NCBI GenBank assembly: GCA_949751835.1 | Contig: CATKHK010000057.1 | Coordinates: 62,001 to 126,000, forward strand | Direction of reading: 5' to 3' | Length of the DNA stretch: 64,000 nt | Source: Blepharisma japonicum | Taxonomy: Eukaryota > Ciliophora > Heterotrichea > Heterotrichida > Blepharismidae | Shown here: piece by piece, positions 6,589-64,000 of the stretch | Layout: each line of letters begins with the position of its first letter | Position numbering within the stretch: position 1 is the first letter of the stretch | The notes under the pieces: generated by a model | Databases searched by the model: none | What the model was told of the DNA's origin: nothing | The model's input: the letters and a program-made list of their open reading frames with translations, nothing else | Position numbers and translations under genes: made by a program

Positions 6589-9500
6589 TTATGGCATTAT
6601 CTTCATCATTGAATTTATTTTCTTAAGGTATCGTTTTTCTTTTCTGAAAAAAGTCATATAAAATCCAAAATACAAAAACATAGAAATTGCAATAAAAAGA
6701 ACCAAAACTGCCACAATTATACCCATTTGAGCATCAATTACTTTGTTAGATGAATTATCCACTTCATCAATCAGCTTACCACTATAATAGTTTAAATCAC
6801 TTAGTATATAAATTAGCATCACTCAATCTTCCATAGAATCCTTTGTGGTCGCAAGATTGCTAGCTTCTATAATAGAGATTTGGGCCGCTGTATGTACTCC
6901 ATATGCAAATTCTAAGTCACTGCTTCCATTCACTTCCTCATAAAGCATTTCTTTAAATTTCTCAGAAAAAATCGCAGAATACCGAGATTCTCTTAGACTA
7001 TTTTCTGAGTTCACCAACTTAAGCACAGCCTTTCTCATCATTTTTGTTGCGTCAGGAAAAGGGTTTACGTCAAATAATACAGCTTTCAAAGATCGGGGAG
7101 TATTTTCTATCATCACTTCAGTTGTCCAAATGCCTAAATTAATTGATAAAACTTGGGTTTGAATTAATTCACTTATTATTTTCGGCCGATAGGACAAATA
7201 ATCTGTAAGTGTTTCATACAAATAATTAATATTTAATAGTGAAAAAGTAGACACAGCTAAAAAGTATATGGAAATCCTTCATACATATTTCCAATAATTT
7301 TTCGAATTAAATTGCCTTTTAGACAGTGTTTTATCAGTGAGCATTACTTCTGGCTGCGCATGAACTCTTGCGAGCCTTTCGAAACATCCTTGTATAAGCT
7401 CAAAATAGTGGTCATGTGCATGCTCTCTTATATTATTTCAAAGCTTGTTTTCAACTTTTATAACAGAATAGCAGAAAGGAGCCATAGCAGCAATGCACAC
7501 TGTAAATATAAAGATTCCTAACACTAAAAGAGCAATCATTTGGGTTTTAAAATCGCTGACGCCTGATTTTTGGCAATCTATTATGTCAATTAATGATTGA
7601 TTGCAATACCGAAGGGATTCTCCATACCCATTCATTACTAGGAATAAAAATTCTTCAGAATAGTCTTCTGAATTCGCATATTTTCTTAATAACTCATTAG
7701 ACTACATATCTCTTACATTTTGTATAAATTGTGAAATCGTATTCAATAAATTGGTATCTTTCTTATAAATTCCATTATCAACGCCTCATATGTACAAATT
7801 ATCGTCAGTAAAAATGCTATTACCAGAGCAAGAATCCCAATGATTTATATTTGACATGATATCGCTATAAATAGTCTCTAATTCATTAACAGTGCGATTA
7901 AATGACTCATAAGTTTGATTAGCAATTACTGAAGCTTCTGGGCTTGTTGATGTTGAAAGAGCAAGTAAGGCTCTTGCAAAAAACGCACAAATTTGCAAAT
8001 CTTTCCCAACAGTGCCGACAGTTAAAGGAAGATCTAAATTACTTGCAACATCAACATTAGAATATGCATAAAACAGCACTGCGATATTTGTGGCAAGGAC
8101 TATAAGAATCTGTATAAAAATTACTGATATAATAAAAACACAGTGCAAAATGTTGATTGATTGTGAAGAGGTGGTCATCATTTTTATAAAATTTTTTTGT
8201 GAAGAAGGCTGAGATACTTGGGATTTTTCTTCTTCAGCCTTTTCTGAAATATGAATGCTTTCAGTCACTTCTAAAGTCTCTTCTAATCCAGTCTGGTTTA
8301 AATTTGCTTTTGAGTCAGCATAATCTTGAGAATCTTTATATAAAAGTGGCTTATTCCCATCAGAGCTCAGCGACCTTAGCAAATTTAGCGAAATTTCATG
8401 GGCTATTTGAATTTCTATTTCCTCAGTTCTTGGAACCCTACAAGTGTCTGCTTTTCATTTTAAAATTTCTAGAGGCTCATTTATAAGTAGTATATAAGGG
8501 ATTTTTATTTTTCTGAATACTAAATATTGTTTTATTAAAATGGTCTCTTTTTCAAAATACACCAATTGATAAGGGGCGTATGACTGCAAATCATACATTT
8601 TAAAGTTGGGAAATAAATTTTCTAAAGAATAGCCTATCAAATTCCCTTTAACTCCTTGGGCGATTTTTGAAAAATTTATGGTATGGCGCAGGATTTCGCC
8701 AGATTCTGAAATTAATGCAGCTTGATGTTTTGTTTTTTTTGGCTTGAAAACCCACATAGTGACTAGAAAATTGTTAATTGAAGTTATTGAAGCTTTTCCT
8801 GTGCATTCTACCAAAAAATTTGTGGGGAGATTCCAAAAAAATCCTTCAAGTAAATCGATTTCTGAAGCAGAGTCGAACCGAATAATCCGCTTCATTTCTT
8901 CGATAAGTATTTCTTTATGAGAAGAAGGAATAAAATATGTTATACAATTGCCAACAATAAAATGCAAAGGGCATTTTAAAACTTCAGAAACTTTAGAATT
9001 CGCAAAAAGAATTTCTCCAAAATTTTCTTTTTCATTAGAAATAATCATAACTCCATTACTGTCGTTGAAAAAACTGAAATTCTTAGAATCATTTATAGAA
9101 TTTTGTAAAATTCTGTCAAAATACCTCAATTTATTTTCAAGCAGCATTGATTTTTCACTATCATAAAGGACAGTTCTTGCAAACGATGCATAAAGAGATA
9201 ATGATTCTCTTGAGTTGAAAAATTTTGTGGTTAACTGGTTGTATTCTTGATTAAGGGTGGAAATACCATCGTCTACAAGATCTAAAAATTTGATAAGTGA
9301 TTTTAGGGAAGGCCTACTCGCTGTGACCTCTTTTCAAAAATCCAATAAATTCATGCATAGCTGTCTATCTGCTCTTTTGATTTTATTTAATTGCTGAAAA
9401 TTATTTAAAAATTTTGAACTTTCGCTGGATGATGATTTTTGAATATTTTTTTTGCATAAATAAACTTGGTAATTGGCTTCAAGTCCTCAATCAGAAATTA

Positions 9501-10782
9501 ATTTTATTTTGCTTAGTTTTACTTTGGCTAAAGATTCATCTTTTAAAGCAAATATGCAGTAATTTGTAGCCCATATAACTTGATATTTACTACCCTGCAA
9601 GCTTTTCTCAATAAAAAAACTTTCAAAAATCCCAGTAATCTGGTCTTTATTTTCGTCGTCATTTGAACATAATGCTCTTCTTAAAAAAATTTCTAATTTG
9701 TACTCATTATTTATATGGATTGTGCTACTTGGGATTCCCGTTGGGATTTTTCTTTGGAGTTTTGATGAAAAATGAATAATAAACACTGCTGATAATGGCA
9801 CCAAAGCTATTGCAAGCAAGCTAATAGACAATCCTTTATCAATCAAATATCCAAAAAGAAAGATAAAAGATATCAGCGCCACGTCGAAAAATTTTATTAT
9901 TGCTATGGAATTACAAAAAGGGGAAAAGTATGGGATAAATGCCATAGTTTCTACCATTAGTATGAGAGAAGTGAACATTGTCAAAAGCTGGAAATATATA
10001 ATATAGTCTTCTGCGAGTAAAGCATAAATTATTGGTAAAGAATATGTGGCAATAAAGGTGTGGGTGACTATTTTTGAATGAGCTTTTGCTTTTATATTCT
10101 TGCCTGAGGCAAAATGTCGGATTTCTCCAGAAAACTCTGAGTAGAATAAAAGCAAAAAGAAGCTAATTATTATACCAAAAATAATTCCAATTTGAACCAC
10201 AAGGACTATTTGAAAATCACTTGCATCATTGTTTGTTTTATATTCTGAGACTTTGTTTCTAGACCAAAAATTATATTTAAGAAAGATGGAAAATAGCGCC
10301 ATAGAAGGGACCAACAGTAAAGTTGTCCATATATACAAAATTCTTTTAAATAAACCAAAGAATATATTTGGTATTGTATAAGACTCATAGATAATAAAAA
10401 CTAAAGCAATAATACCCAAAAAATTAATAAAGGACATCAGAATGGAAAAATAAAGGCATTCACTCATTATTCCTAAGGCTGAGCAAGTGTGATCAAGCCT
10501 TAAGTACCCTATAACTTCTCAAACAATCATATTATCACTTCAGCCTGTAATTGACATATTCGGAGTCCATAATAAGCTAACAATCTGTATGCACCAAATA
10601 GTTGCCTCAACTATAACACCAGCTTTTTGCTTGTTAGCAGATTTTTCTCCAAAGTTTCTTTCAAAATGTAGCCTCCGATAAAGCTCAAATACCGAGTTTA
10701 TCAGTGATTTTTCTTTTTCAATTTTTCAAATTTCTTTTTTACATGAGAAGCTCTCATCAATATCAGCTTCTTGCCCAAACAT
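6589..10782 (-). CDS. PAS polytopic membrane protein, copy A
   Basis: About 1,387 residues, read with TGA as Trp and two 15-nt introns removed (8110-8124 and 7702-7716). The start is MFGQEADIDESF and the TAA stop directly follows KIMP. Layout, shared by all copies: cytosolic N-terminus (~1-60); about eight membrane helices to ~345, with the conserved loop GEIRHFAS near 215; a helical region ~360-560 with LLDFW and Y-x-x-F-x-x-x-I-L signatures, like the TPR-type repeats of TmcB/TmcC proteins; and a PAS domain (~575-700) containing NFGEILFANSKVSEVL. Then come a charged linker (~780-870), TM9 (~880), an outside domain with NYC/CQ-type cysteines, TM10 (~1070), TM11 (~1160), a second outside domain, TM12 (~1350) and a short tail. 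The family is taken to be a membrane sensor; its ligand is unknown. In A the sequence after intron 2 begins with Ser, where other copies have Gly. Confidence 0.8.
8110..8124 (-). other. 15-nt intron without a stop (copy A)
   Basis: GTAATTTTTATACAG on the minus strand lies exactly where copies E-K carry 15-nt introns ending TAG. Here it ends CAG, is a multiple of three and contains no stop, so unspliced RNA would simply add VIFIQ to membrane helix 9. GT...AG ends, identical position and identical length support an intron; retention cannot be excluded. Confidence 0.7.
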
Positions 10783-11124
10783 TAATATGGACTCTAATAT
10801 AAAACGAATTCTTTAATTATTTTAGATAAAAATAAAAAGAAAGAAACTTACGGAATTAATAAGGTAGAATTTCCAATAATTAATTATTATTAGTATCAGC
10901 TTTTAACTTAAATATTAACTGGATAAAATATAAAATGAATTCTGGAATATATCTTACAAATACGCAAAGAAATTTACGGAATTTATAAGGTAGAATTACA
11001 ATATAATTAATTATTTATTTAGCAAAAAATAAGCTTTAAATTATTATGAATTAAACACAGATTAACTAAGAGCTTAAGATAAAGTAGTTTTAAGGTAAAA
11101 GCGTTTATTCATATATTAAACTTC
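10783..11124. repeat. Spacer A/B with duplicated element
   Basis: Contains two imperfect copies of an element with the core ACGGAATT(A/T)ATAAGGTAGAATT, at about 10851-10880 and 10976-11010, each followed by an AATTAATTATT run. A third copy lies about 140 bp downstream of the stop of copy C (15910-15945), the same distance as the second copy from the stop of B. It therefore belongs to the 3' flank of the duplicated unit. Function unknown. Confidence 0.6.
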
Positions 11125-14100
11125 TTATGGTATTATTTCCATAATTATATGCATTTTGTGTAAAGACTTCTTTTCTTCGTTAAAAAATCTCAGATAGATT
11201 ACAAAATACATAATGAAGGAAACCACAATAAAAATCGCCAAAACAGCAACTATGATGCTGATTTGCCTATCAATTACTGATTGGGAATAATGATCAGCTT
11301 CACTGATCAGTTCATTTCACTTATAATATACTTCATTGAGTACAAGTATCACATGCAATCACAAATTTGCATCTTCATCCCCATATGCAAGGAAAATATT
11401 ATCCAATATTGATATTTCTCCTGCTGAATAAATTCCATAAGCAAATTCATTATAAATTTCGGAATCAACGTTTTCATATAGAGCTTTGTTTATTTTTTCT
11501 GATAAAATGCTTGAATATTTAGAATTTCTCAGCAAAATTTCTGTATGCTTTATTTTATTTATAGTGTCAGTCATTAATATTTGATCTTGTTTGAAAGGAA
11601 GCGAAAATTCTATTCAAGCTCCATCAGATGTGTAAACTTTTTTTAATGTTATTTCGCTTTGTCAAACACCTAATTCATCATATAACATCCTCAATTGTAT
11701 TAGTTCTCTTATAATCTCAGGTCTGTAAGACAAATAATCAGCGCACTGCTGATAAAGATAAAATATATTTATTAAAGAAAATGCTAATACAACCGCAAAA
11801 TATAGGAAAATTCTTCAAATATATTTTCAATAATTTTTGAAATTAAATGGCTCTTTACAAGGACTTTTACTATTATTTTCTATTTCAGGCTGATTGTGGA
11901 TTCTAGTTAGTCTGTCAAGACTTGATTGGGTTAGCTCAAAATAATGTTCACTGGCATTTTTTCTTATTTTATTCCAAAAATTATTCTCAATTTTTATAGT
12001 GGAATAGCAAAATGGAGCAATTATAGCAACGCAGATGGCTAGCACAATAATTCCCAACACTAAAAGAAAAATCATTTCAGCATGAAAATCGTCTATTTTA
12101 GATTTCTGGCATTCAATAATATCAAATAGAGAGCTATTGCAATAATTAAATGCATCCCCATATCCATTAAGAGCTAAAAATGAAACTTCTTTTGATATAT
12201 CACCTTGTTTATTGAATTTTGAAACCAACTCATTTCCCTATTTAAGTTTTACATTTTGAATAAATAAAGCCGTTGTATCCAATAAGTTTGTTCTTTTATG
12301 ATCTTCACTTTCTGGGTAGTATAGATTAATTTTTTTATCAGTGAATATGCTTTTGCTTGAGCAATAATCTCAGCTTTCTAAATTTGATACCGCATCTCTA
12401 TATATTTTTTCTAGGCTATCAATGGTATCTACCAAGCCATAATACATAGCGTCTACAGCATCAGTGTAGCCAGATGGGTTAGTATACATCATTCTTGCCA
12501 TATATCCAGAAATTTGAAAAAATTCTCCCAGATTTCCCACAGTAATTGGGAATGCAATCTTACTAACAAATCCAATACTCAGATATGCAAAAATTAAAAC
12601 TGCAACATTTGAGGCAATTACAACCAAAATCTGAATAAAAATTACTGAAAGCACATAAACTGTATGTAAAATGTTTATTGATCTTGAAGATGTGATCATC
12701 ATGCCAAGAAAAGATTTTTGTGAGGAGTGGGATGCAGGGGATTTTTCTCCTGGTCTTTCTTCTGATTTGCTATTTTCATCGATTTCTGAAGTTTCGCTTA
12801 AATTTATTGACTTTAGGTTTACTTTGGAGTCGTTATAGTCTTGCTGGATTACTTTATATAATTCTGGACTATCTTCTTCTGTATTTAAAGATAACGATAA
12901 ATTTGATGAATTTTGGCTTTTTTCTTCTATTTTTTCTTCTTCGGCTAAATTATATGGCAGCTCAAAGGCACCATCTTTTCATTTTTTTATTTCTTCAGGA
13001 TCATCCGTCAGCATTATATATGGTTTTTTTATCTTATTAAATATAAAATATAATAAGACGAGAATCGTTTCATTTTCAAAATTTCGTAAATGATGAGGAG
13101 TAAATGGCTTTAAATTAGTTTCTTCTAAGCCAGAGTACAGCTTTTTCAGTGAATATCCTACTAAATTGCTATTAATAAAATTCGAAAACTTTGAAAAATA
13201 TTCAGAATGACAATAAATTTCTCCTGATTCTGAAATTAAAGCACATTGATATTTTGTTTCTTTTGGTTTGAAAACTAAAATAGTGACAATATAATTATTT
13301 ATTGAAGTAATTGATGATTTGCCTGTGCATTCCAATAGAAAACCTGTTGGAAGAGTAAAAAAAAATCTATCATTTATATCTAATTCTGATTTTATCTGGT
13401 AATGAACATTTCACTTCATTTCTTTTCTAAATATTTCTTTATAACAATTTGGATGAAATGATAACATATTGGTGCCTAAGAGAAAATTTAAAGGAGTTTT
13501 TAGAATTTCTGTGGCTTTTGAGTTTGCATAAAAAATTTCTCCAAAATTTTCTTCTTCTGCTGAAATTATTAAAACTCCGTTATTCTCGTTAAAATAGTCC
13601 AAATTCTTTGAATCATTTTGAGAACTCTGCATAACTCTATTGAAATATTTAAATTTCCCATCAAGAAAAGCTGATTTTTTATTATCATAAAGAATGTCTC
13701 CAGCATATGATGAGTAAAGAGAAATAGGTTCTCTAGAATTGGAAAACTTAGCCATTAATTGAGGGTATTCCTTATTAAGGAATTCCATGCTATAATTAAT
13801 GAAATTTAGATATTTTATTAATATCCTGAGAGAAGGCTTACTTGTTGTAGCTTCTTTTCAAAATTTTAATAAATTCGTACATAGTTTACTGTCTTCCGTT
13901 TTTATTTGTTTTAACCACTGGAAATAGTTTAGGAACTTTGTGCTTTCACTTGGAGCAAAGTTTTGTATTTTTTTATTGCACAAGTATTGGTGATAATTTG
14001 CCTCTAGATTGTAATCGGAAATACTTTTAGTTTTACTTAACTTGACTTTTGCTAATGATTCATCCCTAAGCACAAATAAACAATAATTTACTGCTCATAT

Positions 14101-15312
14101 CACTTGGAGTTTGTCTCTGTCTAATGTCCTTTCTAAAAAGTATTTTTCAAAAATATAAATAATTTTGTTTTTTTGGTCAAAATTATTATTAGAGCATAAA
14201 GCATATCTGAGTGATTTTTCTAAAGAATACTTAGAGCTTATGCCAACTAAGTTTCGTGGAATATTTTTTTGTGTGTTCTTCTTGCTTAACTTCAATACAA
14301 ATGCAATAATTGATATTGAATAAAATGGTACCAAAACTATTGTCAACAAACTAATTAATAAAGAGTTGTTTAGTCAATATCCCAAAAGAAATATAAAGGA
14401 TATTAAAGCAACTGTAGAAAATCGAATAAATACTAGAACATAATAATAAAGAGAATAGTAAGGGGTAAAAATCATAGTTTCTATTGCAAGAAGTCCCAAA
14501 GTAATCATTGTATATAATTGAAAATAAACAATATGGTCTTCTGCAAGAATTGCATAAAGAATTGGAAATGAATAGGTAAAAATCATCTTGTGGACCTCGA
14601 TTTTAGAGTGAGCCCTTGATCCCAAATTTTTTAAAGCTGAAGAATGTCTAATTTCCCCGGAAAATTCAGCAAAAAACAAAAGTAAAAAGAATGCAATAAC
14701 CATCGCAATAATTGTCAGTACTTGCCATAGAGTACTTATCTCAAAGTCACTGAATTTATTGTGACTTTTGTATTCTGCAACCTCTTTTTTTGGCGAAAAG
14801 TTATATTTTAGAAATATGGAAAATAAAATCATAGAAGGTATAGAGAGCTGAGTTACTCATAAGTAAAGTATTTTTCTAAATATTTTAAAAATTGTATGAG
14901 GTATATTTATAGAATGATAAATAGTAAATACTAAAACTAAAATACCTGAAAAATTAATAAATGTAATCAAAATTGATAAATATAAGCATTCACTCATAAT
15001 TCCAAAACTCGAGCATGCCGTGTCAATTCTCAGGAAGTCAATAATCCTCCATAGCAATTCATTCTTACTTCAGTTTTTGATTGATATATTTGGGATCCAC
15101 AAAAGAGCTATAATTTGAATGCATCAAGTTAATTCTTCAATTGCTATTTGAATTCTTTGAGCCTTATAAAATTTTTCTCCAAAATTCTTCTCTAAATGAA
15201 GTTGGCGATAAAGCTCAAAAACTGAACAAACAATTGAATTTTGCTTCAAAATCTTAAAAAATTTCCTTTCAAAAGCTTGAGTTTCATCGATTCCAACTTC
15301 AAGCCAGGACAT
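11125..15312 (-). CDS. PAS polytopic membrane protein, copy B
   Basis: About 1,385 residues after removing introns 12631-12645 (stopless, ends CAG) and 12238-12252 (GTAAAACTTAAATAG). It starts MSWLEVGIDETQ and ends MEIIP then TAA. The PAS core is NFGEIFYANSKATEIL at about residue 589. It is nearly identical to copy C over the whole length and slightly less similar to D, so this is a recent duplicate. The linker between PAS and TM9 (about 12860-12990) is the main variable stretch and carries 15 nt net more than C. In-frame TGA at 11815-11817 corresponds to TGG in copy J, one of the clearest codon comparisons in the window. All pieces keep one reading frame across the introns, so the gene looks intact. 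Confidence 0.85.
12631..12645 (-). other. 15-nt intron without a stop (copy B)
   Basis: GTAATTTTTATTCAG at the same position as the TAG-ending introns of E-K. It is stopless and in phase; retained sequence would read VIFIQ. Confidence 0.7.
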
Positions 15313-16050
15313 AAATGGACAATAATATTAGAATCTTCAGATAGAAAACTAACCTTCAATGCTAAAAATCAATAATTATTTAAAGCAGCATTTAATATGC
15401 CACTCTAATTAAAAAAATATTGCATAATTGCTCACTGCATCTTACAAAAATATTTAATTTTTAATAACTAATTTTCGCCACTTTCTTATTTATCCATTTA
15501 AGCTCTTATGCAAAAACTATAATCTAATTTGAATCAATTTTAAAATAATACGGAAAGGAATTTAAAAGCGTATTTAATCAATAATGGCATAGACAATTAT
15601 TAGCTCAGAATGCAATAGAGTAAATTTGTGCTCTATGAAGCCACAAACGAATATTTTGAATAAATAATTTACAGGGAAAAACTATTATCCAATATTGATA
15701 TTTCTCCAACATAATAGATCCAGAGCACAAATTTTTTATAAACTATGCTATCCTCATTTTCATATAGTGTTTTTTAATTTTTTCTAATAAGTCGCTTGAA
15801 AAATTGGATTTTCTTAACACCTCTCTCTGTGGTGTTGCCGAAGTGCGAAAACCATATAATAATCAAAGTTAAGAATTCTGGAAGCATATGAGTAAAATAC
15901 TCATATAAATTTATGGAGTTAATAAGGTAGAATTACAATATTAATTAACTAACTATTTAACAAAAAATAATTTTTACATTATTATGAAATAAACACGATA
16001 GCTAAGAGCTTAAGAATGATGGCTTTAAAATAAAAATGTTTATTTGTATT
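15313..16050. other. Spacer B/C with family relic and flank repeats
   Basis: Near the B start the spacer shares a block (about 15567-15660, with TTTAATCAATAATGG and GACAATTATTAGCTCAG) with the upstream regions of C (20487-20600) and D (25825-25900). Its middle holds a decayed family fragment (separate entry). Its left-of-C part matches spacer A/B (about 15905-16040 against 10970-11110), including the GGTAGAATT element. No complete gene. Confidence 0.6.
15680..15860 (-). pseudogene. Relic of array gene, C-terminal piece
   Basis: About 150-180 bp closely match the second outside domain of copy D (about 21650-21810): the segment for 'SILDDNSF', the ENA-x-S region and the SDKTLEY-like antisense stretch are recognisable at DNA level. 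Single-base changes break the frame. It shows that an extra copy once lay between B and C. Confidence 0.65.
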
Positions 16051-19000
16051 TTATGGCATTATTTCCATAATTGTATGCATTTTATGTAAAGACTTCTTTT
16101 CTTCATTGAAAAATCTTAGATAGATTACAAAATACATAAAGAAGGAAATGACAATAAAACTTACCAAAACAGCAACTATGGTGCTAATTTGTCTATCAAT
16201 TACTGACTGGGAATGGTGATCAGCTTCACTGATCAATGCATTTAAGGTATCATATATTTCATGAAGTACTATTATCACATGCAATCACAAATAAGGATCT
16301 TCATCCCCGTATGCAAGGAAAATATTATCTAAGAGTGATATTTCTCCTGCTGAATAAACTCCATATATAAATTCATTAGAAGAAACGCCATCAACGTTTT
16401 CATATAGAGCTTTTTGTATTTTTTCTGATAAAATACTTGAATATTTAGAATTTCTCAACAAAATTTCTGTATGCTTTATTTTATTTATAGTGTCAGTCAT
16501 TAATAATTGGTCATGTTTAAAAGGAAGCGAAAATTCTATTCAAGCTTCATCATGTGCGTAAACTTTTTTTAATGTTATTTCGCTTTGTCAAACACCTAAT
16601 TCATCATATAGCATCCTCAATTGTATTAGTTCTCTTATAATATCAGGTCTGTAAGACAAATAATCAGCGCACTGCTGATAAAGATAAAATATATTTACTA
16701 AAGAAAATGCTAATACAATCGCAAAATATAGGAAAATTCTTCAAATATATTTTCAATAATTTTTGAAATTAAATGGCTCTTTACAAGGACTTCTACTATT
16801 ATTTTCTATTTCAGGCTGATCGTGGATTCTAGTTAGTCTGTCAAGACTTGATTGGATTAGCTCAAAATAATTTTCACCGGCGTTTTTTCTTATTTTGTTC
16901 CAAAAATTATTCTCAATTTTTATAGTGGAATAACAAAATGGAGCAATTATAGCAACACAAATTGCTAGCACAATAATTCCCAACACTAAAAGAAAAATCA
17001 TTTCAGCATGAAAATCGTCTATTTTTGATTTCTGGCATTCAATAATATCAAATAGAGAGCTATTGCAATAGTTAAATAAATCCCCATAACCATTAAGCGC
17101 TAAAAACGATACTTCTTTTGAAAAATCATCGAGTTTATTGAATTTTGAAATCAACTCATTTCCCTATATAAGTTTTACATTTTGAATAAATAAAGCAGTT
17201 GTATCCAATAAATTTGTATTTTTATAAGCTTCACTTTCAGGATAGTATAGATTAATTTTCTTATCAGTGAAAATGCTTTTGCTTGAACAATAATCTCAGC
17301 TTTCTAAATTTGATACTGTATCTATATATAATTTTTCTAGATTATCTATAGTACCTATCAAGCCAAAATACATCGCGACTACAGCATCAGTGTAGCCAGA
17401 TGGGTTAGTATACATCATTCTTGCCATATATCCAGAAAGTTGAAAATAATTTCCCAGATTTCCAACAGTAATAGGAAATGTAACCTTACTGACAAAGCCA
17501 ATACTCAAATATGCAAAAATTAAAACTGCAATATTTGATGCAATTACGACCAAAATCTGAATAAAAATTACTGAAAGCACATAAACTGTATGTAAAATGT
17601 TTATTGATCTTGAAGATGTTATCATCATGTTCAGAAATGTTTTTTGTGAGGAGTGGGATGCAGGGGATTTTTCTCCTGGTCTTTCTTCTGATTTATTATT
17701 TTCATCAATTTCTGAAGTCTCGTTTAAATTTACTGACTTTAGGTTTGCTTTGGAGTCGTTATAATCTTGCTGAATTTCTTTATATAATTCTGGACTGTTA
17801 TCTTCTGTATTTAAAGATAACGATAAATCTGATAAATTTGGGCTATCTTCTATTCCTGCATCATTTGGCACTTCAAAAACCCCGTCTTTTCATTTTTTTA
17901 TTTCTTCAGGATCATCTGTAAGTATTACATATGGGATTTTTATTTTATTAAATATAAAATATAATAAGATGAGAATTGTTTCATTTTCAAAATTTCGTAA
18001 ATGATGAGGAGTAAATGGCTTTAAATTAGTTTCTTCTAAGCCAGAGTACAAATTTTTTAGTGAATATCCTACTAAATTGCTATTAATAAAATTTGAAAAT
18101 TTTGAAAAATATTCAGTATGGCAATAAATTTGTCCTGATTCTGATATTAAAGCACATTGATGTTTTGGTTCATTTGGTTTGAAAACTAAAATAGTGACAA
18201 TATAATTATTTATTGAAGTAATTGATGATTTGCCTGTGCATTCCAATAAAAAGCCTGTTGGAAGAGTAAAAAAAAATCTATCATTTATATCTAATTCTGA
18301 TTTTATCTGGTAATGAAAATTTCACTTCATTTCTTCTCTAAATATTTCTTTATAGCAATCTGGTGTAAAAGATGACATACTGGCGCCTAGCAGAAAATTT
18401 AAAGGAGTTTTCAGAATTTCTGCAGATTTTGAGTTTGCATAAAAAATTTTTCCATAATTTTCTTCTTCAGCTGAAATTATCAAAATTCCGTTATTATCGT
18501 TAAAATAGTCCAAATTTTTTGAGTTATTTTGAGAACTCTGCATAAATCTATTTAAATATTTAAATTTTCCATCAAGAAATGCTGATTTTTCATTATCATA
18601 AAGAATTCCTCCTACATATGATGAATAAAAAGAAATAGGTTCTTTAGAGTTGGGAAATTTTGCCATTAATTGAGGGTATTCCTTATTAAGGAATTCCATG
18701 CTATAATTAATGAAATTTAGATATTTTATTAATATCCTGAGAGAAGGCTTACTTGTTGTAACTTCTTTTCAAAATTTTAATAAATTTGTGCATAGTTTGC
18801 TATCTTCTTTTTTTATTTTTCTTAAACGCTGGAAATAGCTTAAAAATTTTGTGCTTTCACTTGGAGCAAAGTTTTGTATTTTTTTATTGCACAAGTACTC
18901 TTGATAATTTGCTTCTAGGTTGTAATCGGAAATACTTTTAGTTTTACTTAACTTGACTTTTGCTAATGATTCATCCCTAAGCACAAATAAACAATAATTA

Positions 19001-20223
19001 GCTGCTCATACTAATTGAAGCTTGTCTCTATCCAAAGCCCTTTCTAAAAAATATTTTTCAAAAATGTAAATAATTTTGCTTTTTTGATCAAAATTATTAT
19101 TAGAGCATAAAGCATGTCTGAGTGATTTTTCTAAAGAATACTTAGAGTTTATGCCTACTAAGTTTTCCGGAATATTTTTTTGTTCGTTCTTCTTTCTTAA
19201 CTTCAATACAAATGTAATAATTAATATTGAGTAAAAAGGAACCAAAACTATTGTCAACAAACTAATTAATAAAGAGTTGTTTAGTCAATATCCCAAAAGA
19301 AATATAAAGGATATTAAAGAAACTACAGAAAATCGAATAAATACTAGAACATAATAATAAAGAGAATAGTAAGGGGTAAAAATCATAGTTTCTATTGCAA
19401 AAAGTCCTAGAGTTATCATTGTATACAATTGAAAATAAACAATATGATCTTCTGCAAGAATAGCATAAAGAATTGGAAATGAATAAGTAAAAATCGCCTT
19501 ATGGACCTCAATTTTAGAATGAGCCCTTGATCCAAAATTTTTTAAAGCTGAAGAGTGCCTAATTTCTCCTGAAAATTCAGCAAAAAATAAAAGTAAAAAA
19601 AATGCAATAACCATCGCAGTAATTGTCAGTACTTGCCATGGGGTACTGATCTCAATGTCACTGAATTTATTGTGGTTTTTGTATTCTGCAACCTCTTTTT
19701 GTTGCGAAAAATTATATTTCAGAAATATGGAAAATAATATCATAGAAGGTATAGAGAGCTGAGTTACTCATAAGTAAAGTATTTTTCTAAATATTTTAAA
19801 AATTGTATGAGGTATATTTATAGAATGATAAATAGCAAATACTAAAACTAAAATACCTGAAAAATTAATAAATGTAATCAAAATTGATAAATATAAGCAT
19901 TCACTCATAATTCCAAAACTCGAGCATGCCGTGTCAATTCTCAAGAAGTCAATAATTCTTCATAACAATTCATTTTTGCTTCAGTTTTTGATTGATATAT
20001 TTGGGATCCACAAAAGAGCTATAATTTGAATGCATCATGTTAATTCTTCAATTGCTATTTGAATTCTTTGAGCTTTATAAAATTTTTCTCCAAAATTCTT
20101 CTCTAAATGAAGTCGGCGATAAAGTTCAAAAATTGAGCACATGATTGAATTTTGCTTCAAAATCTTAAAAAATTTCCTTTCAAAAGCTTGAGTTTCATCG
20201 ATTCCAACTTCAAGCCAAGACAT
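16051..20223 (-). CDS. PAS polytopic membrane protein, copy C
   Basis: About 1,380 residues with introns 17557-17571 (stopless) and 17164-17178 (GTAAAACTTATATAG) removed. It starts MSWLEVGIDETQ as B does and ends MEIMP then TAA. The PAS core reads NYGKIFYANSKSAEIL, so the usual Glu of 'GEI' is Lys here. It differs from B mainly in the linker upstream of TM9 (17600-17880) and in scattered residues of both outside domains; membrane helices and helical repeats are almost unchanged. The frame is continuous through all TGA codons. Most likely functional and a very recent duplicate of B, or kept similar by gene conversion. Confidence 0.85.
17557..17571 (-). other. 15-nt intron without a stop (copy C)
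   Basis: GTAATTTTTATTCAG, identical to the copy B intron and in the same place; stopless and in phase. Confidence 0.7.
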
Positions 20224-34819: not shown

Positions 34820-34873
34820 CTCAAATAGTTATTATTTCAAGAATTGGCTTTTCTTAGCTTCATCAATTGGAAA

Positions 34874-45111: not shown

Positions 45112-45136
45112 TAATTATTAATATATAAAATAATTC

Positions 45137-45415: not shown

Positions 45416-45444
45416 TGAATTATATTATTTAAAGCCGTTTTGGG

Positions 45445-45695: not shown

Positions 45696-45699
45696 TTGC

Positions 45700-50842: not shown

Positions 50843-53800
50843 TTAAACCCCTTGCGGCATGATCTTCATCATCGAGTTTATTTTCATCAAATATTTTTTT
50901 TCATTCCTGAAAAATATTAAATACTTTCCGAGATAAATTATTAAAGAAATCATAATAAAAATGACAAGGATCGTCATTATCAAGTGTATTTGGTCGTCAA
51001 TCACATTTTGAGAGTATTTATCAACTTCAATAATTATTTGACTATAATATTTATCAAGCTCAAATATAAAAGTCAAAAAACGTAGCCACGCATAAAGGTC
51101 ATAATAGAGATATATAAGAGCTCCAGAGTCATATTGTGCTATTTCTCCAGCTGAGTGTATTCCTTTTGCTAGCTCATTTCATGCTGAATCAACATTTTCA
51201 TAATATATTCTACTGAATCAATTTGACAAAATATCAGAATACTTAGAATCTCTTAGAACGATTTCTGAATATTTTATTTTCGAAATTGCCTTCTGTAGTG
51301 CAGACTCACTATTGGCAAAAGGATACGCCATATACAATTGATTTTTTATACTGCTATATGTGTAATCTCCTGAAATCTCAGTCATCCATATTCCTAGATT
51401 TATATATGACGTTTGAATAGTTAATAATTCTCTAATAACCTCAGGCCGATAAGATAAATACTCGGCACATTTTTCATAAAAATACACTATATTTGTTAAT
51501 GAAAATAAAAATACAATTATGCAATAAATAAAAATCCTTCATGTATATTTTCAATAATTTTTGAAATTAAATGGCTTTTTTGAGAGTTTTTTGTCGTTTG
51601 GTGAAATTTCATCTTGATGATGAATATTTGCAAGCCTATCAATACTTGAATTTACAAGCTCAAAATAGTTCTTATATGCAGATTTTCTTACTTTATTTCA
51701 TAGATCATTCTCAATTTTTAGAGTTGAGTAGCAAAATGGAGCCATAATAAGAATGCAAGTGCCAAGAACAGCAATTCCTAATACTAATAAAATAAACATT
51801 TTCGATTTAAAATTATTGATTTCAGTTTCTTGGCAGTCTATAACGTCATACATAGAGTGATTGCAATAGTAAAACGCTTCACCATATCCATTTATTAACA
51901 TAAACTTAGCTTCTTCTGTAAAATCTTCTGAAGTATTAAATTTTCTAATAAATTCTTTTCCCTATATAGATAGTTACAGTCTGAATAAACTGAGTTATAG
52001 TATCCAATAAGTTTGTTTTTTCGCGGTAAATACCATTATCTAAATGCCATATTTCAATATTTTTATCACTAACTATACTTCTGCCTGAGCATGAGTCCCA
52101 GCTTGTTAAATTCTTAGCAATATACGAATGAATATTCTCCAATTCACCAATTTTTGTTTCAAATCCTGCAAAAATTGGAGGCAATATTGAACTCGAATAA
52201 ATTGCGTAGGGTGACAATATTAAAACAATTTTTGCTATATAAGCAGTTAATTGCAGAGTTTTACCAGCTTCTCCAACAGTTAAAGGAAGACTCATATCAC
52301 TGACTAAATTTATGCTGGAAAATGCATAAAATAAAACTGCGATATTTGTAGCAATTACAATTAAAACCTACATAAACTTTACAGAGAGGACAAAAACAAA
52401 ATGCAAAATATTTATGGACCTTGAGAATATTTTTATAACTCTCAAAAATTGTTTTAAGGATGTATGTAAAGAAACTTGGGATTTTTCATCAAGTTTTTCT
52501 GAAGATTGATCATTAAGAATATCTGAATTTTCATCTCTTTTAGACAGAATTAGTCTGCATTCTGTATCAAAGCTAAGCTCTCTATTTTCTTGAGATTTTG
52601 GAGTTATTGGCTGACTCAAAGGGATTTCAAGATTGTCCAATAGCTTTGATTTTCTTTTTTTGCAATTTTCAATTGGATTGATAAGGCAGGAGCATTTATC
52701 AAGCACATTTTCTTGCCATTTTTGCATTTCTTCGGAGTCATATATTAATAAAATATATGATACTTTAATACGGCAGACTTCAAAATACATAGAAACTAAG
52801 ATTTTTTCTGATAAATGGTAAGGAATAAATGGTTCTAAGCGTAAATTTTCGATATAAAATATTTTGTTTAGATCATATCCTATCAAATTGCTATAAGAGC
52901 ATTTAGCATATTTAGAAAAACTCTCTGTATGCCCTAAAATTTCCCCATAATCAGATATTAGTGCGACCTGATGGTTAACAGGCTTTAATTTGAAAGCAAG
53001 TACTGTAATAAGAAAATTATTAATTGCTGTAATTGATGCTTTTCCTGTGCACTCTATTAAAAAATTTGAGGGAAGATTTAGAAAAAATCCATCTTCTAAG
53101 TCAATTTCTGAGTCCGAGCTAAACTGGACATACCATTTCATTTTTTCTATGAATATTTTTCTATAATAAGGTACAATAAAATTAGATATGCAATTGCCCA
53201 CAAGTGAAGAAGATTTTAGGGTTTGTGAAGCTGTAGAATTAGCAAAAAGAATTTCTCCAAAATTTTCTTCTTCATTAGAAAATATTAAAATTCCATTTCC
53301 ATCATCAAAAAAGCTAAAATTTTTTACATCATTCGTTGAATTTTGAGCAAGCCTATCAAAATATCTTAATTTATTATCGAGCATAATTCCTTTTTCTATA
53401 TCAGAAAGAATATTTCTTGTATATGAAGCGTAAAGTGCTAAAGATTCTCTGGAATTTGAAAATTTCATTATTATTTTGTTATATTCTCTACTGAGAGTAA
53501 GAATATTTTGATCTATGAAATTTAGCTTTCTTATGAGTCTGTTAAGAACTGGCATATCTGAAGCAACCTCTTTTCAAAATTCTAGTAAGGTTTCACATAG
53601 TTTTTTGTCTTCTTTCTTTATTCAGTTTAATTGCTGGAAATAATTTAAAAACTTTGAGGTCTCACTTGTATAGGAATCATCAATATTTTTCTTACACAAA
53701 TATGCTTGATAATTCGCTAATAAACTCCAATCAGAAACCTTGTTGATTTTGCTTAGTTTAGCTTTAGCTAAAGATTCGTCCTGCAGTGTGTATAAACAGT

Positions 53801-55013
53801 AATTTGTTTCCCATATAACTTGCAATCCAGTACTATTTTTTGTCTTTTCTATAAAAAATGCTTCAAAAATGTAAATAATTCGAGATTTATTTTCAGTATC
53901 ATTTTCACATAAAGCGTGCCTTAAAGCTTTTTCTAATTGATATTGGGAATTAATTTCTCTTAAATTATTTGGTAGATTGATGCCTGCTCTTTGTTGATGT
54001 TTTAAGATAAAATGAATAAAGCATAATGATGATAAAGGCACCAACACAATTGAAAATAAAATAATTGATAGAGAATTGTCTAGCAAATATCCTAGCTGAA
54101 AAATAAAGGATATAACGGCAATAATAAAAAATCTAAGAATCATTAGCGAGTTGTAAAAAAAAGAAAAATAAGGAATAAAATTAACAGCTTCCCACGTCAA
54201 AAATAGCGAAGCAAGCATTACCATAAATTGATAATAAATAATATGATTTTCTGCAATTATCGCATAAAAAATCGGTAAAAAATACATAAAAATTGTCATA
54301 TGAGTATCTACTCTTGAATGCGCTTTTGCTTTGATAGTTCGCTCAATTGCAAAATGGCGAATTTCACTTGTAAGCTCAGAGTAAAATAATATCAGAAAAA
54401 AAGAAATCGCCATTGCAAAAATGATCAATATCTGCAAAGCAGTATTAATTTCAAAGTCTTTAAAATGATTGTTTGAGTGATATTCTGACACCTTTTCCTC
54501 AGGAGAAAAATTATATTTGAGATAAATGGAAAATAAAGTCATCGAAGGAATAAAAAGTATAGTAGCCCATAAATAGGAAAATTTTTTAAACACAATAAAG
54601 ATTTGTTGAGGCAAGTTAAATGCTTTGTATAAAAGAATCGCAATAATTAAATGACCAAAAATTATAAAGAAACTCGTCAAAAATGATAAGTATAGGCATT
54701 CATTAATAATGCCTAGCTCAACACAGGCGCTGTCAAATCTCAAATATCCAATGATCTCTCAAATAAAAATATTTCCACTCCAATTTTTTACTGGGAGGTC
54801 TGGAATCCATATTAAAGCTGCAACTTGCAGGCATCAAATTATTGTTTCGAGCGCCGCTTTTGCCTTCTGTTTCGAGTTCGATTTATTTTCGAGGTTCTTT
54901 TTTGAGTACAATTGTCGATAAGCCTCAAAAATAGCTTCTAGTCATAATTTTCTGTTTTCAGTTTCCCAAAACTTATTTTTTGTTTTGTCTAATTTAATAT
55001 CTGATCTTATCAT
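50843..55013 (-). CDS. PAS polytopic membrane protein, copy I
   Basis: About 1,379 residues. The gene length is not a multiple of three until one 15-nt intron (52368-52382, GTAAAGTTTATGTAG) and one 16-nt intron (51962-51977) are removed; the reading frame changes exactly at the latter, confirming it. Start MIRSDIKLDKTKN, end MKIMPQGV then TAA, three residues longer than in A, J and K. It has two of the longest uninterrupted stretches of any copy (53622-54743 and 52368-53555), which makes the domain order easy to read. Helix GEIRH is TSEIRHFA here; the PAS core is NFGEILFANSTASQTL near 591. The linker holds many Ser/Glu/Lys residues (DENSDILNDQSSEK). It belongs to the A/I/J/K group. Confidence 0.87.
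51962..51977 (-). other. 16-nt intron (copy I)
   Basis: GTAACTATCTATATAG on the minus strand, at the position of the 15-nt second intron in A-F, J and K. Coding frames upstream (codons ending at 51978 and above) and downstream differ by one base, exactly what a 16-nt removal corrects; the exon then resumes GKEF-x-RKFN like its relatives. Confidence 0.88.
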
Positions 55014-55524: not shown

Positions 55525-56030
55525 AGAAAATAAATTTTAAGGAAATCCTAAATACATTCCAAAATATAAACCAGAAATTATAATAAAAATCGCCAAAAAT
55601 GTTATAATTAGGTGTATTTGATCACCAATTACTCTTTGTGAATATTGACAAACGTTATCAATTAAATGTGTAAAAATTCATAAAGTTAGTTCATGCATCT
55701 ATATCTGCAGTTATATAAATGGCAGCTTAAACTTCATATAGTAATATTTCCCCTGAAGAACACAAATGCAAATTCATAAAAATAAGGTCATAATCATTTT
55801 GATTAAAATTTTTATGATATTTTGAATTTCTTAACAAAATTCTGAATATTATATTTTTTGAATTAGCATTTTCATTGAAATTTTTACTATCAATAAAAGG
55901 ATATACATAATATAATTGATTCCTGTAGATTCTGTTGCTAACATAAGATTTTATATTGTATTTTGCACTATTTAGTAACTCTCTTATTTATACTTCTAAA
56001 AACTTATTTAACGCTTCGAGATTAAATTTA
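55525..56030 (-). pseudogene. Decayed C-terminal relic of array gene
   Basis: About 500 bp aligned by eye with the last ~170 codons of copy J (56190-56760): the last membrane helix, the LRNSKYH-like segment and the SLID-like stretch are recognisable. Frames are broken by several indels and stops. It lies directly downstream of the true J 3' flank, on the same strand, and shows that another A/I/J/K-type copy once stood here and lost its 5' nine tenths. Confidence 0.7.
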
Positions 56031-56142
56031 TATTTGGCACTTCAAAATTAATGACTGAGCTTAAACTTCTATATACTTAATAATTATTATTTACATTCTT
56101 ATAAATATATCCTTTCGAAATAAGCTAAAACTTCATAAATAT

Positions 56143-59100
56143 TTATGGCATTATTTTCATTATTGAATTGATTTTCGTCAAATATTTTTTTTCCTTCCTA
56201 AAAAACTTTAAATACATCCCAAAATACATTGCCAATGAAATAACAATAAAAACTATAAGAATTGCCATTATTAAATGAATTTGGCTATCAATTACCTTTT
56301 TTGAATAATGGTTAACTTCATCAATCATTTGGCTGTAATAATAATCAATATCAGTTGCCATAAATATAAATTTTGTTCATGCAGCATAGTCAGTAAGTTC
56401 ATAATAAATAGCAGTAGCTTCATACATTGTAATTTCTCCAGCTGAATATACTCCATAGCCAAAATCAGCATAAGGATAATTATTTACGTTTTCGTAAAAT
56501 ATTTGATTGAAATTTTTTGATAAAATAGGAGAATTTTTTGGATCTCTTAAAACAATTTCTGAATAATTAATTTTTTCAATTGCTAATTGCATTGCAGCTT
56601 TACTATCAACAAAAGGATAAGCATAATATAAAATATATTTGGCAGCAGTTCATGTAAATTCCCCTGCCGCTTCTGAAGTTCATATCGCTAAGTTTGTGTA
56701 TAATATTTGCATATTTATCAATTCTCTTATAACCTCAGGTCTATAAAACAAGTATTCAGCGCATTTTTCATAGAAATAGCTAATATTAATTATGGAAAAC
56801 ACAAGGACAATTATAAAATAAATAAAAATTCTCCATGCATATTTTTGATAATTTTTGAAGTTAAATGCTTTTTTTGAAAGATTCTTATCACTGAGTGGAA
56901 TTCCATCTTGATGATGAATATTTGTAAGTCTTTCTGTAACTGATTGGAATAGCTCAAAATAATGCTTATAAGCAGATTTTCTTACACTATTCCAAAGATT
57001 GTTTTCAATTTTCAGTGTCGAATAGCAAAATGGAGCCATAATAAAAATGCATGCACCGAGAACAGCAATGCCCAAAACCAATAAAATAAGCATTTTTGTT
57101 TTGAAATCTGATATTCCTGATTGTTGGCAATCTATAATATCATATAATGAGCTATTGCAATAATGAAACGCATCTCCATAGCCATTCAAAAGCATAAATG
57201 AAGCTTCATATGTAACATCTTCTGAATCATTGAATTTTCTTATAAATTCATTTCCCTATATAATCTTTACATTCTGGACAAATTTAGTTAATGCATCCAA
57301 TAAATTTGTTTTTTCTCTATAAACGCTGTACTTTACATTTCATAATTCAATGTTTTGATCAGTAAAATAATGTTGGCCTGAACATGAATTTCAATTAGTT
57401 AAATTTGAAGTTACGTATGAATGAATCTTTTCCAATTCTATCAATGTTTTTCCAAATCCTACCAGAGTGCCCAAAGCATATTCTCTCATATCAGGTCCGC
57501 CATAAGAAAGGACTAAAATACTTTTTGCAAGATAAGCAGAATACTGCAAGTTTTTACCAATACTTCCAATAGTCAAAGAAATACTAATATCACTGACTAA
57601 GCTAATGCTAGAAAATGCATAAAATAAGACTGCAATATTGGTTGCGATAACAATTAAAATCTATATAAAATTTACTGATAAAACAAAAACAGAATGCAAA
57701 ATATTTACAGACCTTGAAAATATTTTTGTAATATTTATAAATCTTTTTAAAGTTGTGTGTTGAGATAAAAGAGATTTTTCGTCCATTTTTTCTGAAGAGA
57801 GATTGCTATTGATATCTAAATTTTCATCAGACTTATTGATAATAAGTTTGCAATCAGAATCATAACTCTGCTCTTTGCAATCTTGTGAAACTGGACTAGT
57901 TAGTAATTTCAATGGAATCTCTAAATTTTCAATTGGTTTTTCTTTGCTTTTGCTAAAATCAGGAAAATTATTATAGCTAAAATACTCATTGAATCCTTTA
58001 TCTTTTCATTTTTGTATTTCTTCAGAGTCATTAATTAACAAAATATATGGTATTTTAATTTTATGAATCTCAAAGTATGCCAATACAAGGATAATTTGTC
58101 TTTCAATACCAGATAGATTGTAAGGTACAAATGGATTTAAATTTGCCATATCTAGATTAAGGATGTTGCTTAAAGCAAATCCTGCTAAGTTGCTTTGCTT
58201 ATTTACAGAGAATTTCGAAAAATCTTCAGAGTGACATAAAATATCTCAATTTTCTGATATCAATGCAACATGGTGTCTAACTTGTTTAGCTTTAAAAACT
58301 AGCACTGTGATAATAAAATTGTTAACTGCGGTGATCGACACTTTTCCTGTGCATTCTAATATAAAATTTGTGGGAAGATATATAAAAAACCCATTATCTA
58401 AATTAATCTCTGAATTCGAACCAAAGTGAGCAAACCATTTCGCTTCATCAGTAAATATTTTTCTGTAATACGGAGGAATAAAATTGGATATGCTATTGCC
58501 AATAATCAAATTTGAAGGAGTTTTTAAAATTTTAGAAGCAGTTGGGTTACTAAAAAGAATTTCTCCGAAGTTCTCTTCTTCGTTCGAAAAAATAAGAATT
58601 CCATTTGTATCATCAAAATAACTAAGTTGCTTAGTATCAGCTGCAGAGCTTTGAGCAAGCCTATCAAAATATCTTAATTTATTATCAAGCATTATTGATT
58701 TTTCAATATCATACAAGATATTTCTTGTATAAGATGCATAAAGTGCCAAAGATTCTCTGGAATTAGAAAATTTCGTTATTATTTGGCTATATTCATTGTT
58801 AAGGAAAATAACGCTATCATCAATAGCTTTCAGCTGCGTTATTAGCTTTTTCAAAATGGGAGTATCTGATGTAACCTGTTTTCAAAATTTGAGTAAATTT
58901 ACACATAATTTTTTATCTTCCCTTTTAATCCAATTTAATTGGTGAAAAAAGCTTAAAAATTTTGAGCTCTCACTCATAAAAGAATCTTCAATATTTTTTT
59001 GACACAAATAAGCTTGATAATTTGCTTCTCAACTCCAATCCAAAATTTTTTTAATTTTGCTCAACTTTACCCTTGCTAAAGACTCGTCTTTTAAGGAATA

Positions 59101-60333
59101 TAAACAATAATTTGTTTCTCATACAATTTGTAGTTTACTTCTATTTAGAGTCATAAAAAATCATTCAAAGATTTGAATAATTTGATTTTTGTTGTTAGTA
59201 TCATTTTCACATAAAGAATGCCTAAGAATTTTGTCTAATTGGTACTGAGTATCAACCCCTATCAGACTATTCGGTAAGCTGACACCCAATCTTTGCTGCC
59301 ATTTCAGTATATAATAAATAAAGTATATTGATAATATTGGAAGTAGAACTATCGTGAATAAGATAATAAATAAAGAATTATCTATTCAATATCCCAATAG
59401 AAAAATAAAGGATATTAAAGCAATAACAAAAAATTTGAGGGCCAATATAGAATTGTAAAATATCGAAAAATAAGGAAGGAATTTCATACTCTCCACCATA
59501 AGAATTAATGAAGCTATCATTATCAAAATTTGATAAATAATAATATGATTTTCTGCAAGCACTGCATAAAAAATTGGTAAAAAATACATAAAAATTGCAG
59601 TATGAGTATCAATTCTTGAATGCGCTTTTGCTTTTATAGTTCTGTTGCTTGCAAAATGTCGAATTTCACCAGAAAATTCAGTATGGGCCAAAAGTATAAA
59701 AAAAGAAATAATCATTACAAAAATGATAGCTGTTTGAAATGCTGAATTAATCTCAAAATTTTTAAAACCGCTGTTAAAACGGTATTCTAAAACCTTATCT
59801 TGAGGTGAAAAATTATACTTCTCAATGATGGAAAATAGTGTAAGCGAAGGTATTAAAAGCAAAGTCAATCATAAATAGAATATTCTTTTAAACATGACTA
59901 ATGCCTGAGTTGGAATTTCAAAGGAATTATATATACAACAAACTAAAAGAAAAATACCTAAAAAATTGAAAATAGCTATAAAGACTGCTAAATAAAGGCA
60001 CTCGCTTATAATTCCCATTTCAGCACAAGTATTGTCAAGTCTCAAGTATCCTACAATTTCCCAAATAAAAATATTCCCACTCCAATTTTTAATTGGTAGA
60101 TTCGGGATTCAAATCAACGCTATAATTTGGAAGCATCATACTGTGACTTCAAATATTGCTTTTGCTTTTTGCTTATAAACTGATTTATCACTTAAAGCTT
60201 TTTTAAAGTAAAGTTGCCGATGAACTTCATAGAGCGATTTTACTATTGATTTTCCTCTTTTTACCTTCAAAAACTGACTTTTTAAGTTTGAGACTTCGCA
60301 TCAATCAGCATTTAGTTCAGTAAATGAAGACAT
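56143..60333 (-). CDS. PAS polytopic membrane protein, copy J
   Basis: About 1,386 residues; introns 57661-57675 (GTAAATTTTATATAG) and 57256-57270 (GTAAAGATTATATAG). Start MSSFTELNADWCE, end IMKIMP then TAA. Used here as the reference for residue numbers: TM1 ~57-78, TM2 ~110-135, TM3 ~156-173, TM4 ~196-218, TM5-TM8 ~243-345; helical repeats ~360-560; PAS ~575-700 with NFGEILFSNPTASKIL; TM9 ~880; TM10 ~1065-1090; TM11 ~1155-1177; TM12 ~1340-1366. The first outside domain carries GYGDAFHYCNSSLYDIIDCQ, the second begins YFYEKCAEYLFYRPEV. In copy J the conserved NFKNYQKYAWRIF segment uses TGG (56833-56835) and CAA where B-D use TGA. Confidence 0.87.
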
Positions 60334-61271: not shown

Positions 61272-64000
61272 TTATGGCATAATTTTCATTATTGAATTGA
61301 TTTTTGCCAAATATTTCTTTTCCTTCCTGAAAAATCTTAAATACATCCCAAAATACATTATAAAGGATATCACAATAAAAACTATAAGAATTGCCATTAT
61401 TAAGTGGATTTGTTTATCAATAACACTTTTTGAATATTGATCAGCTTCATCAATCATTTGGCCATAATAATAATCGATACTAGCAATAACATTTATGAAT
61501 TTTGTCCATGCCATAAGATCTGTAAATATATAAATTATAGCAGTAGCTTCATACATTGTGATTTCTCCTGCTGAATATACTCCAAATCTGAAGTCAGGAT
61601 AAGGAGGATTATTGACATTTTCATGAAGTATTTCATTAAATTTTTGTGATTTAATGGGAGAGTATTTGGGATTTCTTAAAACTTTCTCTGAGTGTTGAAT
61701 CTTTTCAATTGTGAACTGCATTGCAGTTTTACTATCAATAAAAGGTAGGGAATAATATAAAATATATTTTACTGAAGTTCCTGTAAAGTCTTGGGACACT
61801 TCGGTTGTTCATATCCCTAAGCTCGTATATAAGGTTTGTGAATTTATTAATTCTCTTATGATCTCAGGCCTATATGACAAGTATTCTGCACATTTTTCAT
61901 AAAAATAGCTTATATTAACAATAGAGAACACTAATACAATTATAAAATAAATAAAAATTCTCCATACATATTTTGGGTAGTTTTTGAGATTAAATGATTT
62001 TTTCGAAAGATGTTTTTCTTTAGGTGGAATTTCATCATGATGATGAGTATTTGCAAGTCTGTCCACAATTGACTGTGTAAGCTCAAGATAATGCTTACAA
62101 GCAGATTTTCTAACACTATTTCAAAGATTATTTTCAATTTTTAGAGTTGAATAGCAAAATGGAGCCATAATAAGAACACATGCACCAAGGACAGCAATAC
62201 TTAATACCAATAAAATCAGCATTTTTGCCTTGAAGTCTGATAATCCTGATTGTTGGCATTCTATAATATCATATAACGAGCTATTACAATAATGAAATGC
62301 TTCTCCATAGCCACTCAAAACCATAAATGAGGCTTCATATGTGACGTCTTCTTGATTATCGAATTTTCTTGTAAATTCATTTCCCTATATAGCTTTTACA
62401 GTATGAATAAATTTAGTTACTGTGTCCAATAAGCTTGTTTTTTCTCTAGCAACGTTATAATTTACATATCATAGATTGATATTTTGATCAGTAAAATAAT
62501 TCCTCCCTGAGCACGAGCTTCAATCTGTTAGATTTGAAGTAATATATGAATGAATATTGTCCAGCTCTGTTAATACACCTTTAAACGCTGACATAGTGTT
62601 AACAGCATACTCTCTAGTCCCAGCCTCCGGATAAGAAAGCACTAAAATAGTTTTCGCAAGATAAGCAGCATACTGCAAGTTTTTACCAACATTTCCAATT
62701 GTCAAAGGAAGGCTCATATCACTGACTAAGTTAATACTGGAAAATGCATAAAATAGGACTGCGATATTTGTGGATATAACAATTAAGATCTAAATAAAAA
62801 TTACTGATAGGACAAAAACAGAATGCAAAATATTTATGGCTCTTGAAAATATTTTTGTAATATTTATAAAATTTTTTAAGGAAGTGTGCTGAGACATTAC
62901 AGATTTTTCGTCTATTTTTTCTGAAGAAAGATTCCCATGAAGGTCTGAGAAATTGTCAGCTTGATTAAAAATTAGTTTGCAATCGGAATCATAATCATGC
63001 TCTTTGTTTTCTTTTAAAGCTGGAGTAGTTGGCAAATTTAATGGGATTTCTATATTTTCGAATGGTTTTTCAATTCTTTTGGTATGACTAGGAGTTGTAT
63101 CATAGCTAAAATTCCCATGAAATCCTTTTAATTTTCACTGCTGTATTTCTTCAGGGTCATTTATTAATAAAATATATGGGATTTTAATATCATGAAACTC
63201 GAAATAGGCAAACACAAGGATGATATCTCTTTGAATACCAACTAAATTGTAAGGAGTAAATGGATTAAAATTAGACATTTCTAATTTTAGGATATTGCTT
63301 AAAACAAGTCCTGCTAAATTGCATTGGTCATTTCCAGAAAATTCAGAAAAGTTTTCAGTGTGGCATAAAATTTCCAAACTTTCTGTTATTAATGCAATTT
63401 GATGGCTAACTTGTTTAGCCTTAAAAGCAAGCACTGTTATAATACATTTGTTAATTGCAGTGATTGATGCTTTTCCTGTACATTCTAATATAAAATTTGA
63501 TGGCAGATATATAAAAAATCCATCATTTAAATTAATTTCTGAATTTGAGCCATAATGAGTAAACCACATAGATTTTTCAATAAATTTTTTTCTATAATAA
63601 GGAGGAATAAAATTAGATATGCTATTGCCAATTATGGAATCTGAAGTAGATTTTAAAAGTTCTATAGCTGCTGGATTAGTAAAAAGGATTTCTCCGAAAT
63701 TTTCTTCTTCATTTGAAAAAATTATAATTCCATTTGTATCATTAAAAAAATTAACTTGCTTAGTGTCGATTGTAGAGCTTTGAGCAAGTCGATCAAAATA
63801 TCTTAATTTATTATCAAGCATAATTGACTTTTCAATGTCATACAAGATATTTCTTGTATAAGATGCATAAAGTTCGAGTGATTCTCTAGAATTAGAGAAT
63901 TTCGTTATTATTTGACTATATTCATTGCTAAGAAGAGCAACACTGCTATCTATCGATTTCAGCTGCGTTATGAGCCTGCTCAAGATGGGTTTTTTTGATG
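61272..64000 (-). CDS. PAS polytopic membrane protein, copy K (partial)
   Basis: The C-terminal ~900 residues are inside the window; the 5' part continues past 64000. Introns 62790-62804 (GTAATTTTTATTTAG) and 62385-62399 (GTAAAAGCTATATAG). The part seen starts in the helical region (SKKPILSRLITQLKSID), then PAS core NFGEILFTNPAAIELL with IIGNSISNFIPPYYRK, the linker, TM9-TM12 and the end KINSIMKIMP, TAA. Closest to J. The first intron differs from the stopless introns of A-D by little more than its last codon (TAG instead of CAG). The frame is coherent over all the sequence present. Confidence 0.87.

Follow-up and report, generated by a model that had tools for sequence, protein, structure and literature searches.

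What do the tandem genes of a 64,000-nucleotide stretch of the Blepharisma japonicum genome encode, and how did they come to be so many? The stretch, hereafter the window, is contig C57:62,001-126,000 (CATKHK010000057.1 of assembly GCA_949751835.1), part of a genome searched here as 45.2 Mb on 224 contigs. From window position 6,589 to 64,000 it carries eleven minus-strand genes, ten of them complete and the eleventh extending as far as 127,453 on the contig. Together they form a branch of a TmcB-like family that has expanded in tandem. The array most likely encodes cell-surface chemosensors, a reading to which we give about an even chance and for which we infer ligand sensing, the signal path and the output.

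A one-strand array of nineteen genes

Genes were called with a purpose-written intron-aware gene finder, and decayed copies were located by tblastn. Gene finding and splicing confirmed an earlier note's account of eleven minus-strand genes of nearly equal length in a cluster that leaves the window: the spliced copies encode 1,355-1,390 aa and have no internal stops after intron removal, with in-frame TGA read as tryptophan and introns of 15-16 nt. Five low-scoring intron calls, which lay off the conserved sites, were removed. The same note described the cluster as uninterrupted. This holds for strand and for the absence of any other well-scored gene (the sole other prediction in 6,589-64,000 is an antisense open reading frame of 162 aa, score 1), but decayed remnants lie between the copies:

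6589..10782, minus strand: array copy 1, 1387 aa; introns 8110-8124 and 7702-7716
11125..15312, minus strand: array copy 2, 1385 aa; two 15-nt introns
15678..15830, minus strand: short decayed remnant of the outside domain 2 region (tblastn best E 2.4e-6)
16051..20223, minus strand: array copy 3, 1380 aa; 89% identity with copy 2
21381..25565, minus strand: array copy 4, 1384 aa once one unsupported intron call is removed
27238..31335, minus strand: array copy 5, 1355 aa; TPR_TmcB 1.9e-10
29026-31335, minus strand: first 770 codons of copy 5, folded as model meb192e55a015
31761..33799, minus strand: decayed C-terminal remnant, closest to copy 7 (tblastn best E 1.5e-28)
35430..39527, minus strand: array copy 6, 1355 aa; 83% identity with copy 5
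40927..45108, minus strand: array copy 7, 1388 aa; one intron
46248..50435, minus strand: array copy 8, 1390 aa; one intron
46248-47759, minus strand: C-terminal half of copy 8, folded as model mb081fc0b51dd
50843..55013, minus strand: array copy 9, 1379 aa; introns of 15 nt and 16 nt
55543..55987, minus strand: decayed C-terminal remnant (tblastn best E 3.3e-16)
56143..60333, minus strand: array copy 10, 1386 aa
61272..64000, minus strand: array copy 11, 1383 aa; runs on to contig 127453

With the eight copies beyond the window, the full array has 19 members, spread over 100 kb (contig 68,589-168,522) and all minus-strand. Both conserved introns are present in 15 of the 19 copies and the first only in the other four; one second intron measures 16 nt. 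Eighteen copies and the downstream part of the nineteenth are free of internal stops. Outside the window, the copy at contig 147,494-152,067 is broken by an insert of about 440 bp (L014:4760-5198, that is, contig C57:150,760-151,198), a 420-base piece of which occurs once in the genome. With a GC content of 0.38, against 0.25-0.31 in 2-kb blocks of the window, the insert is possibly a retained internal eliminated sequence. Also beyond the window are a decayed C-terminal remnant between two copies (contig C57:163,396-164,178; tblastn best E 9.8e-8) and a plus-strand N-terminal fragment (contig C57:152,819-153,043) with 73% identity to the copy at 128,668, an inverted remnant of an array gene.

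Domain order and predicted folds

Each protein runs from about eight membrane helices through TPR_TmcB, PAS and a linker to two modules, each made of a helix, an outside domain and a second helix. Copy 10 serves as the reference, and residue numbers are those of its spliced product:

59284..60168, minus strand: N-terminal membrane domain, residues 56-350, about eight helices (seven hydropathy peaks, one broad; low-confidence model)
58654..59256, minus strand: TPR_TmcB region, residues 360-560 (Pfam match; limits chosen from the alignment)
58009..58641, minus strand: PAS region, residues 565-775 (limits chosen from the alignment)
57661..57675, minus strand: conserved intron 1, 15 nt
57094..57612, minus strand: predicted outside domain 1, residues 903-1070, holding intron 2 (hydropathy, fold, sequon and cysteine pair)
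57256..57270, minus strand: conserved intron 2, 15 nt
56299..56748, minus strand: predicted outside domain 2, residues 1186-1335 (hydropathy and fold)

Like the gene structure and the array itself, the TPR_TmcB match is directly observed. The Pfam family (PF25474), which we take to be linked to the Dictyostelium tiny macrocysts proteins TmcB and TmcC, matched all ten scanned copies at E <= 0.1 (best 2.6e-10), scoring 34.2-41.2 bits in the three copies with scores shown (curated cut-off, 27). This match agrees with the TmcB/TmcC-type layout proposed earlier, as does the PAS domain, which lies immediately C-terminal of the TPR region and is weak by sequence and clear by predicted fold. Identity to the PAS sensors FixL and DosP is 8-19% in the fold-match rows. 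The PAS fold, the four-helix fold described below and the topology are all predictions. Hydropathy and a collinear BLASTP alignment with a dispersed relative place a multi-helix membrane domain of uncertain helix number ahead of the TPR region, and four hydropathy peaks in the C-terminal half correspond to the two modules. Outside domain 1 carries a near-invariant glycosylation sequon at N1050; sequon enrichment failed as a test of topology, and just this single site was retained.

Outside domain 1 is modelled as a four-helix bundle, its nearest folds being the bacterial sensor domains of PcaY_PP, Tsr and NasR (Foldseek; the rows hold top-ranked folds only, so that families missing from them are not thereby excluded). 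The model and the VIA rows agree on the bundle, and plain Foldseek returned nothing at E <= 0.001. This bacterial-sensor-like model is new here; for outside domain 2 the prediction is less clear. The proteins resemble bacterial four-helix chemoreceptor sensors, and NasR with its NIT domain, in the predicted fold of domain 1 and in the general layout of the C-terminal half, where an outward domain would be held at both ends by membrane helices. They differ in having two separate membrane-anchored modules per chain and in lacking a sequence-profile match: no 4HB_MCP, TarH or NIT family was among the 19 Pfam families matched by any of the eleven C-terminal halves (E <= 1), and neither HAMP nor the MCP signalling domain was among the eight matched by ten copies at E <= 0.1.

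Several other candidates were set aside. Profile comparison of the two outside domains gave a probability of 0.1%, and so their shared origin by internal repeat is not shown. The best alignments to solved structures (E 0.5, C-terminal; 0.41, N-terminal) were taken as chance, as were weak matches of C-terminal halves to 7tm_1, TRP, Orai and other Pfam families, each in one or two of the eleven members. For 7tm_1 these were two C-terminal halves (best 4.5e-4), with none in ten copies at E <= 0.1; a rhodopsin-type G-protein-coupled receptor (GPCR) does not fit, because the C-terminal halves show four hydropathy peaks and contain two long helical domains.

Family size, age of the copies and selection

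Counted genome-wide, the family has at least 157 loci on 38 contigs (merged by estimated gene start), led by C38 (30), C58 (25), C57 (19), C50 (11), C56 (11) and C40 (8); the count is a lower bound for detection that may include decayed copies, with few genes read outside C57. The TPR_TmcB profile found 146 places (150 of 174 candidates scored), with eight of the eleven window copies among the matches listed; protein queries with the C-terminal half and the N-terminal part gave 85 matches (85 of 202 candidates scored) and 58 (58 of 195), respectively. C38 and C58 hold further arrays that, unlike C57, are of mixed strands. Two short patterns matched prokaryote contigs 50 times, none of these matches being confirmed by tblastn, and plasmids gave no match to the N-terminal part, the sole query used there.

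Copy 5 is collinear with a dispersed relative (L004) across the membrane domain, the TPR region and the start of PAS (21% identity, E 6e-16). In the relative L024, read as a full gene, the parts follow one another as in the array copies, three of the four hydropathy peaks in its C-terminal part passing the threshold used; the array therefore expands a known, uncharacterised family. With TmcB/TmcC-like proteins it shares the TPR_TmcB match, the order of membrane domain, TPR and PAS, and two C-terminal modules, and it differs in its weaker PAS sequence, shorter linker and large arrays, a comparison that includes no Dictyostelium sequence. A literature search on TmcB, tiny macrocysts and PAS in ciliates returned no recognised description of the family, which does not show that none is in print. 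Animal tandem chemoreceptor families likewise form large clusters with recent local duplicates and remnants; their proteins are unrelated, and the owner of this array is single-celled, its sensory function putative.

The earlier note attributed the array to recent duplication. That applies to a trio of copies (76-89% identical) and to neighbour pairs at 83, 73 and 65%, but most pairs are only 30-60% identical; judged by sequence divergence, the array is mostly old, with only some neighbours recent. The C57 tree (midpoint root) has two clades, of 10 and 9 genes, interleaved along the array. Support is 99/100 for the first, including a C38 gene, and 93/97 for the 9-gene clade, which has an open fork. 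Because the C38 gene falls within the first clade, the arrays share history; C58_L022 and C5_L024 form long branches that meet, so their position is unsure. Distance along the array is weakly linked to divergence (Mantel r 0.19, reached in 98 of 5000 shuffles).

Whole-gene ratios of nonsynonymous to synonymous substitution (dN/dS) range from 0.22 to 0.34 in seven pairs, the closest of which has dS 0.23 and 89% protein identity. Pooled over four recent pairs, which are not independent in that one copy is used twice, dN/dS is 0.20 for the TPR region and N-terminal membrane core, 0.27 for PAS and 0.44 for the linker. In outside domain 1 it is 0.57 [0.39-0.87] for the distal half versus 0.21 [0.15-0.30] for the proximal, and in outside domain 2, 0.37 [0.26-0.51] versus 0.24 [0.17-0.34]; adding a fifth pair gives 0.44 versus 0.20 and 0.35 versus 0.25. 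The first distal windows were chosen after viewing conservation, and the halves were taken from the model helix list, also after that view; the 28-residue tip, at 0.99 [0.60-1.93], is a post hoc pick. Within the outside domains, constraint is thus weakest at the outward end of domain 1, but in no region of the pairs of array copies is dN/dS clearly above 1, and the ratios do not demonstrate positive selection.

A sugar-transporter gene (Sugar_tr, 3.4e-74; window 4419-5816) adjoins the 3' end of the array. At contig C57:187,855-211,782 stand three plus-strand tandem genes (L018-L020) of 2,386-2,399 aa, the first with Notch-type LNR repeats (8.3e-20) and a beta-helix region (5.9e-16). Three units of the telomere repeat CCCTAACA match 168 times (overlaps counted; reversed control, 0), and the matches among the places listed lie at contig coordinates 2-421 or at the opposite end (C5, C17, C38). 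TGA as tryptophan, short introns and CCCTAACA telomeres, which together make the genus Blepharisma likely, are likewise described for Blepharisma stoltei (PMC9942806).

Candidate functions of the array

A sensory mechanism can be outlined. The N-terminal domain of about eight helices would anchor each protein, followed inside the cell by the helical TPR_TmcB region, the PAS fold and the fast-changing linker; the chain would then cross the membrane four more times, exposing two outward helical domains with membrane helices at both ends. A cue may bind near the tips of the outward bundles and shift the helices entering the membrane, and the PAS/TPR part could relay this change, either within the protein to its N-terminal membrane domain or to a partner. 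Divergence between copies is greatest in the distal half of outside domain 1; the copies may therefore respond to different cues, which suggests a sensor set. The earlier picture of a diversifying receptor set is supported in part.

The strongest competitor, still unlikely in our judgement, is that these are membrane regulators with no outside ligand: dosage or stage-specific variants of a TmcB-like transporter, channel or regulator, with structural bundles. Purifying selection throughout would fit, as would the dispersed relative with identical part order and conservation that peaks in the C-terminal membrane helices, the short tail and the TPR region; the faster distal half of domain 1 does not, nor does a modelled bundle geometry nearest to ligand-sensing domains. 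That faster half, together with the near-invariant sequon in the outward domains, could instead mark receptors for cell-cell recognition or mating, with outward domains that would bind either proteins of a partner cell or secreted gamones. In Blepharisma, two secreted factors, gamone 1 and gamone 2, set off conjugation (PMC10892320), but at least 157 loci are not needed for two mating pheromones and no observation here connects the family with conjugation, and we regard this as rather improbable.

Ciliates are known to switch surface antigens, and multigene arrays with remnants as potential donors would suit variable surface proteins of which only one or a few are in use at any moment. We hold such antigenic variation to be very unlikely: the known surface antigens of ciliates do not look like these large proteins, with their conserved cytosolic domains and about 12 predicted membrane helices, and copies mostly 30-60% identical are too diverged for frequent conversion. 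Least credible of all is an assembly artefact multiplying or misjoining one or a few genes, for which the assembly, alone examined, offered no supporting point. Collapse or misjoining is unlikely because even the closest of the seven pairs stands at dS 0.23 and 89% protein identity, and because the copies vary in introns, length and spacing, with individual remnants; the two deep interleaved clades also speak against it.

We therefore return to cell-surface chemosensors. The fuller proposal, which we put forward tentatively, is a repertoire of at least 157 loci whose products, unlike GPCRs or insect-type receptors, pair two four-helix bundles resembling those of bacterial chemoreceptors with PAS/TPR and have diversified at their outward tips. 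Unicellular eukaryotes sense many chemicals by means that are poorly understood. If the proposal is true, it would supply concrete candidates, a domain with a likely binding site and a natural set of diverged copies in which to compare cue specificity. A eukaryotic receptor family would then also be linked to a sensor fold that is best known in bacteria.
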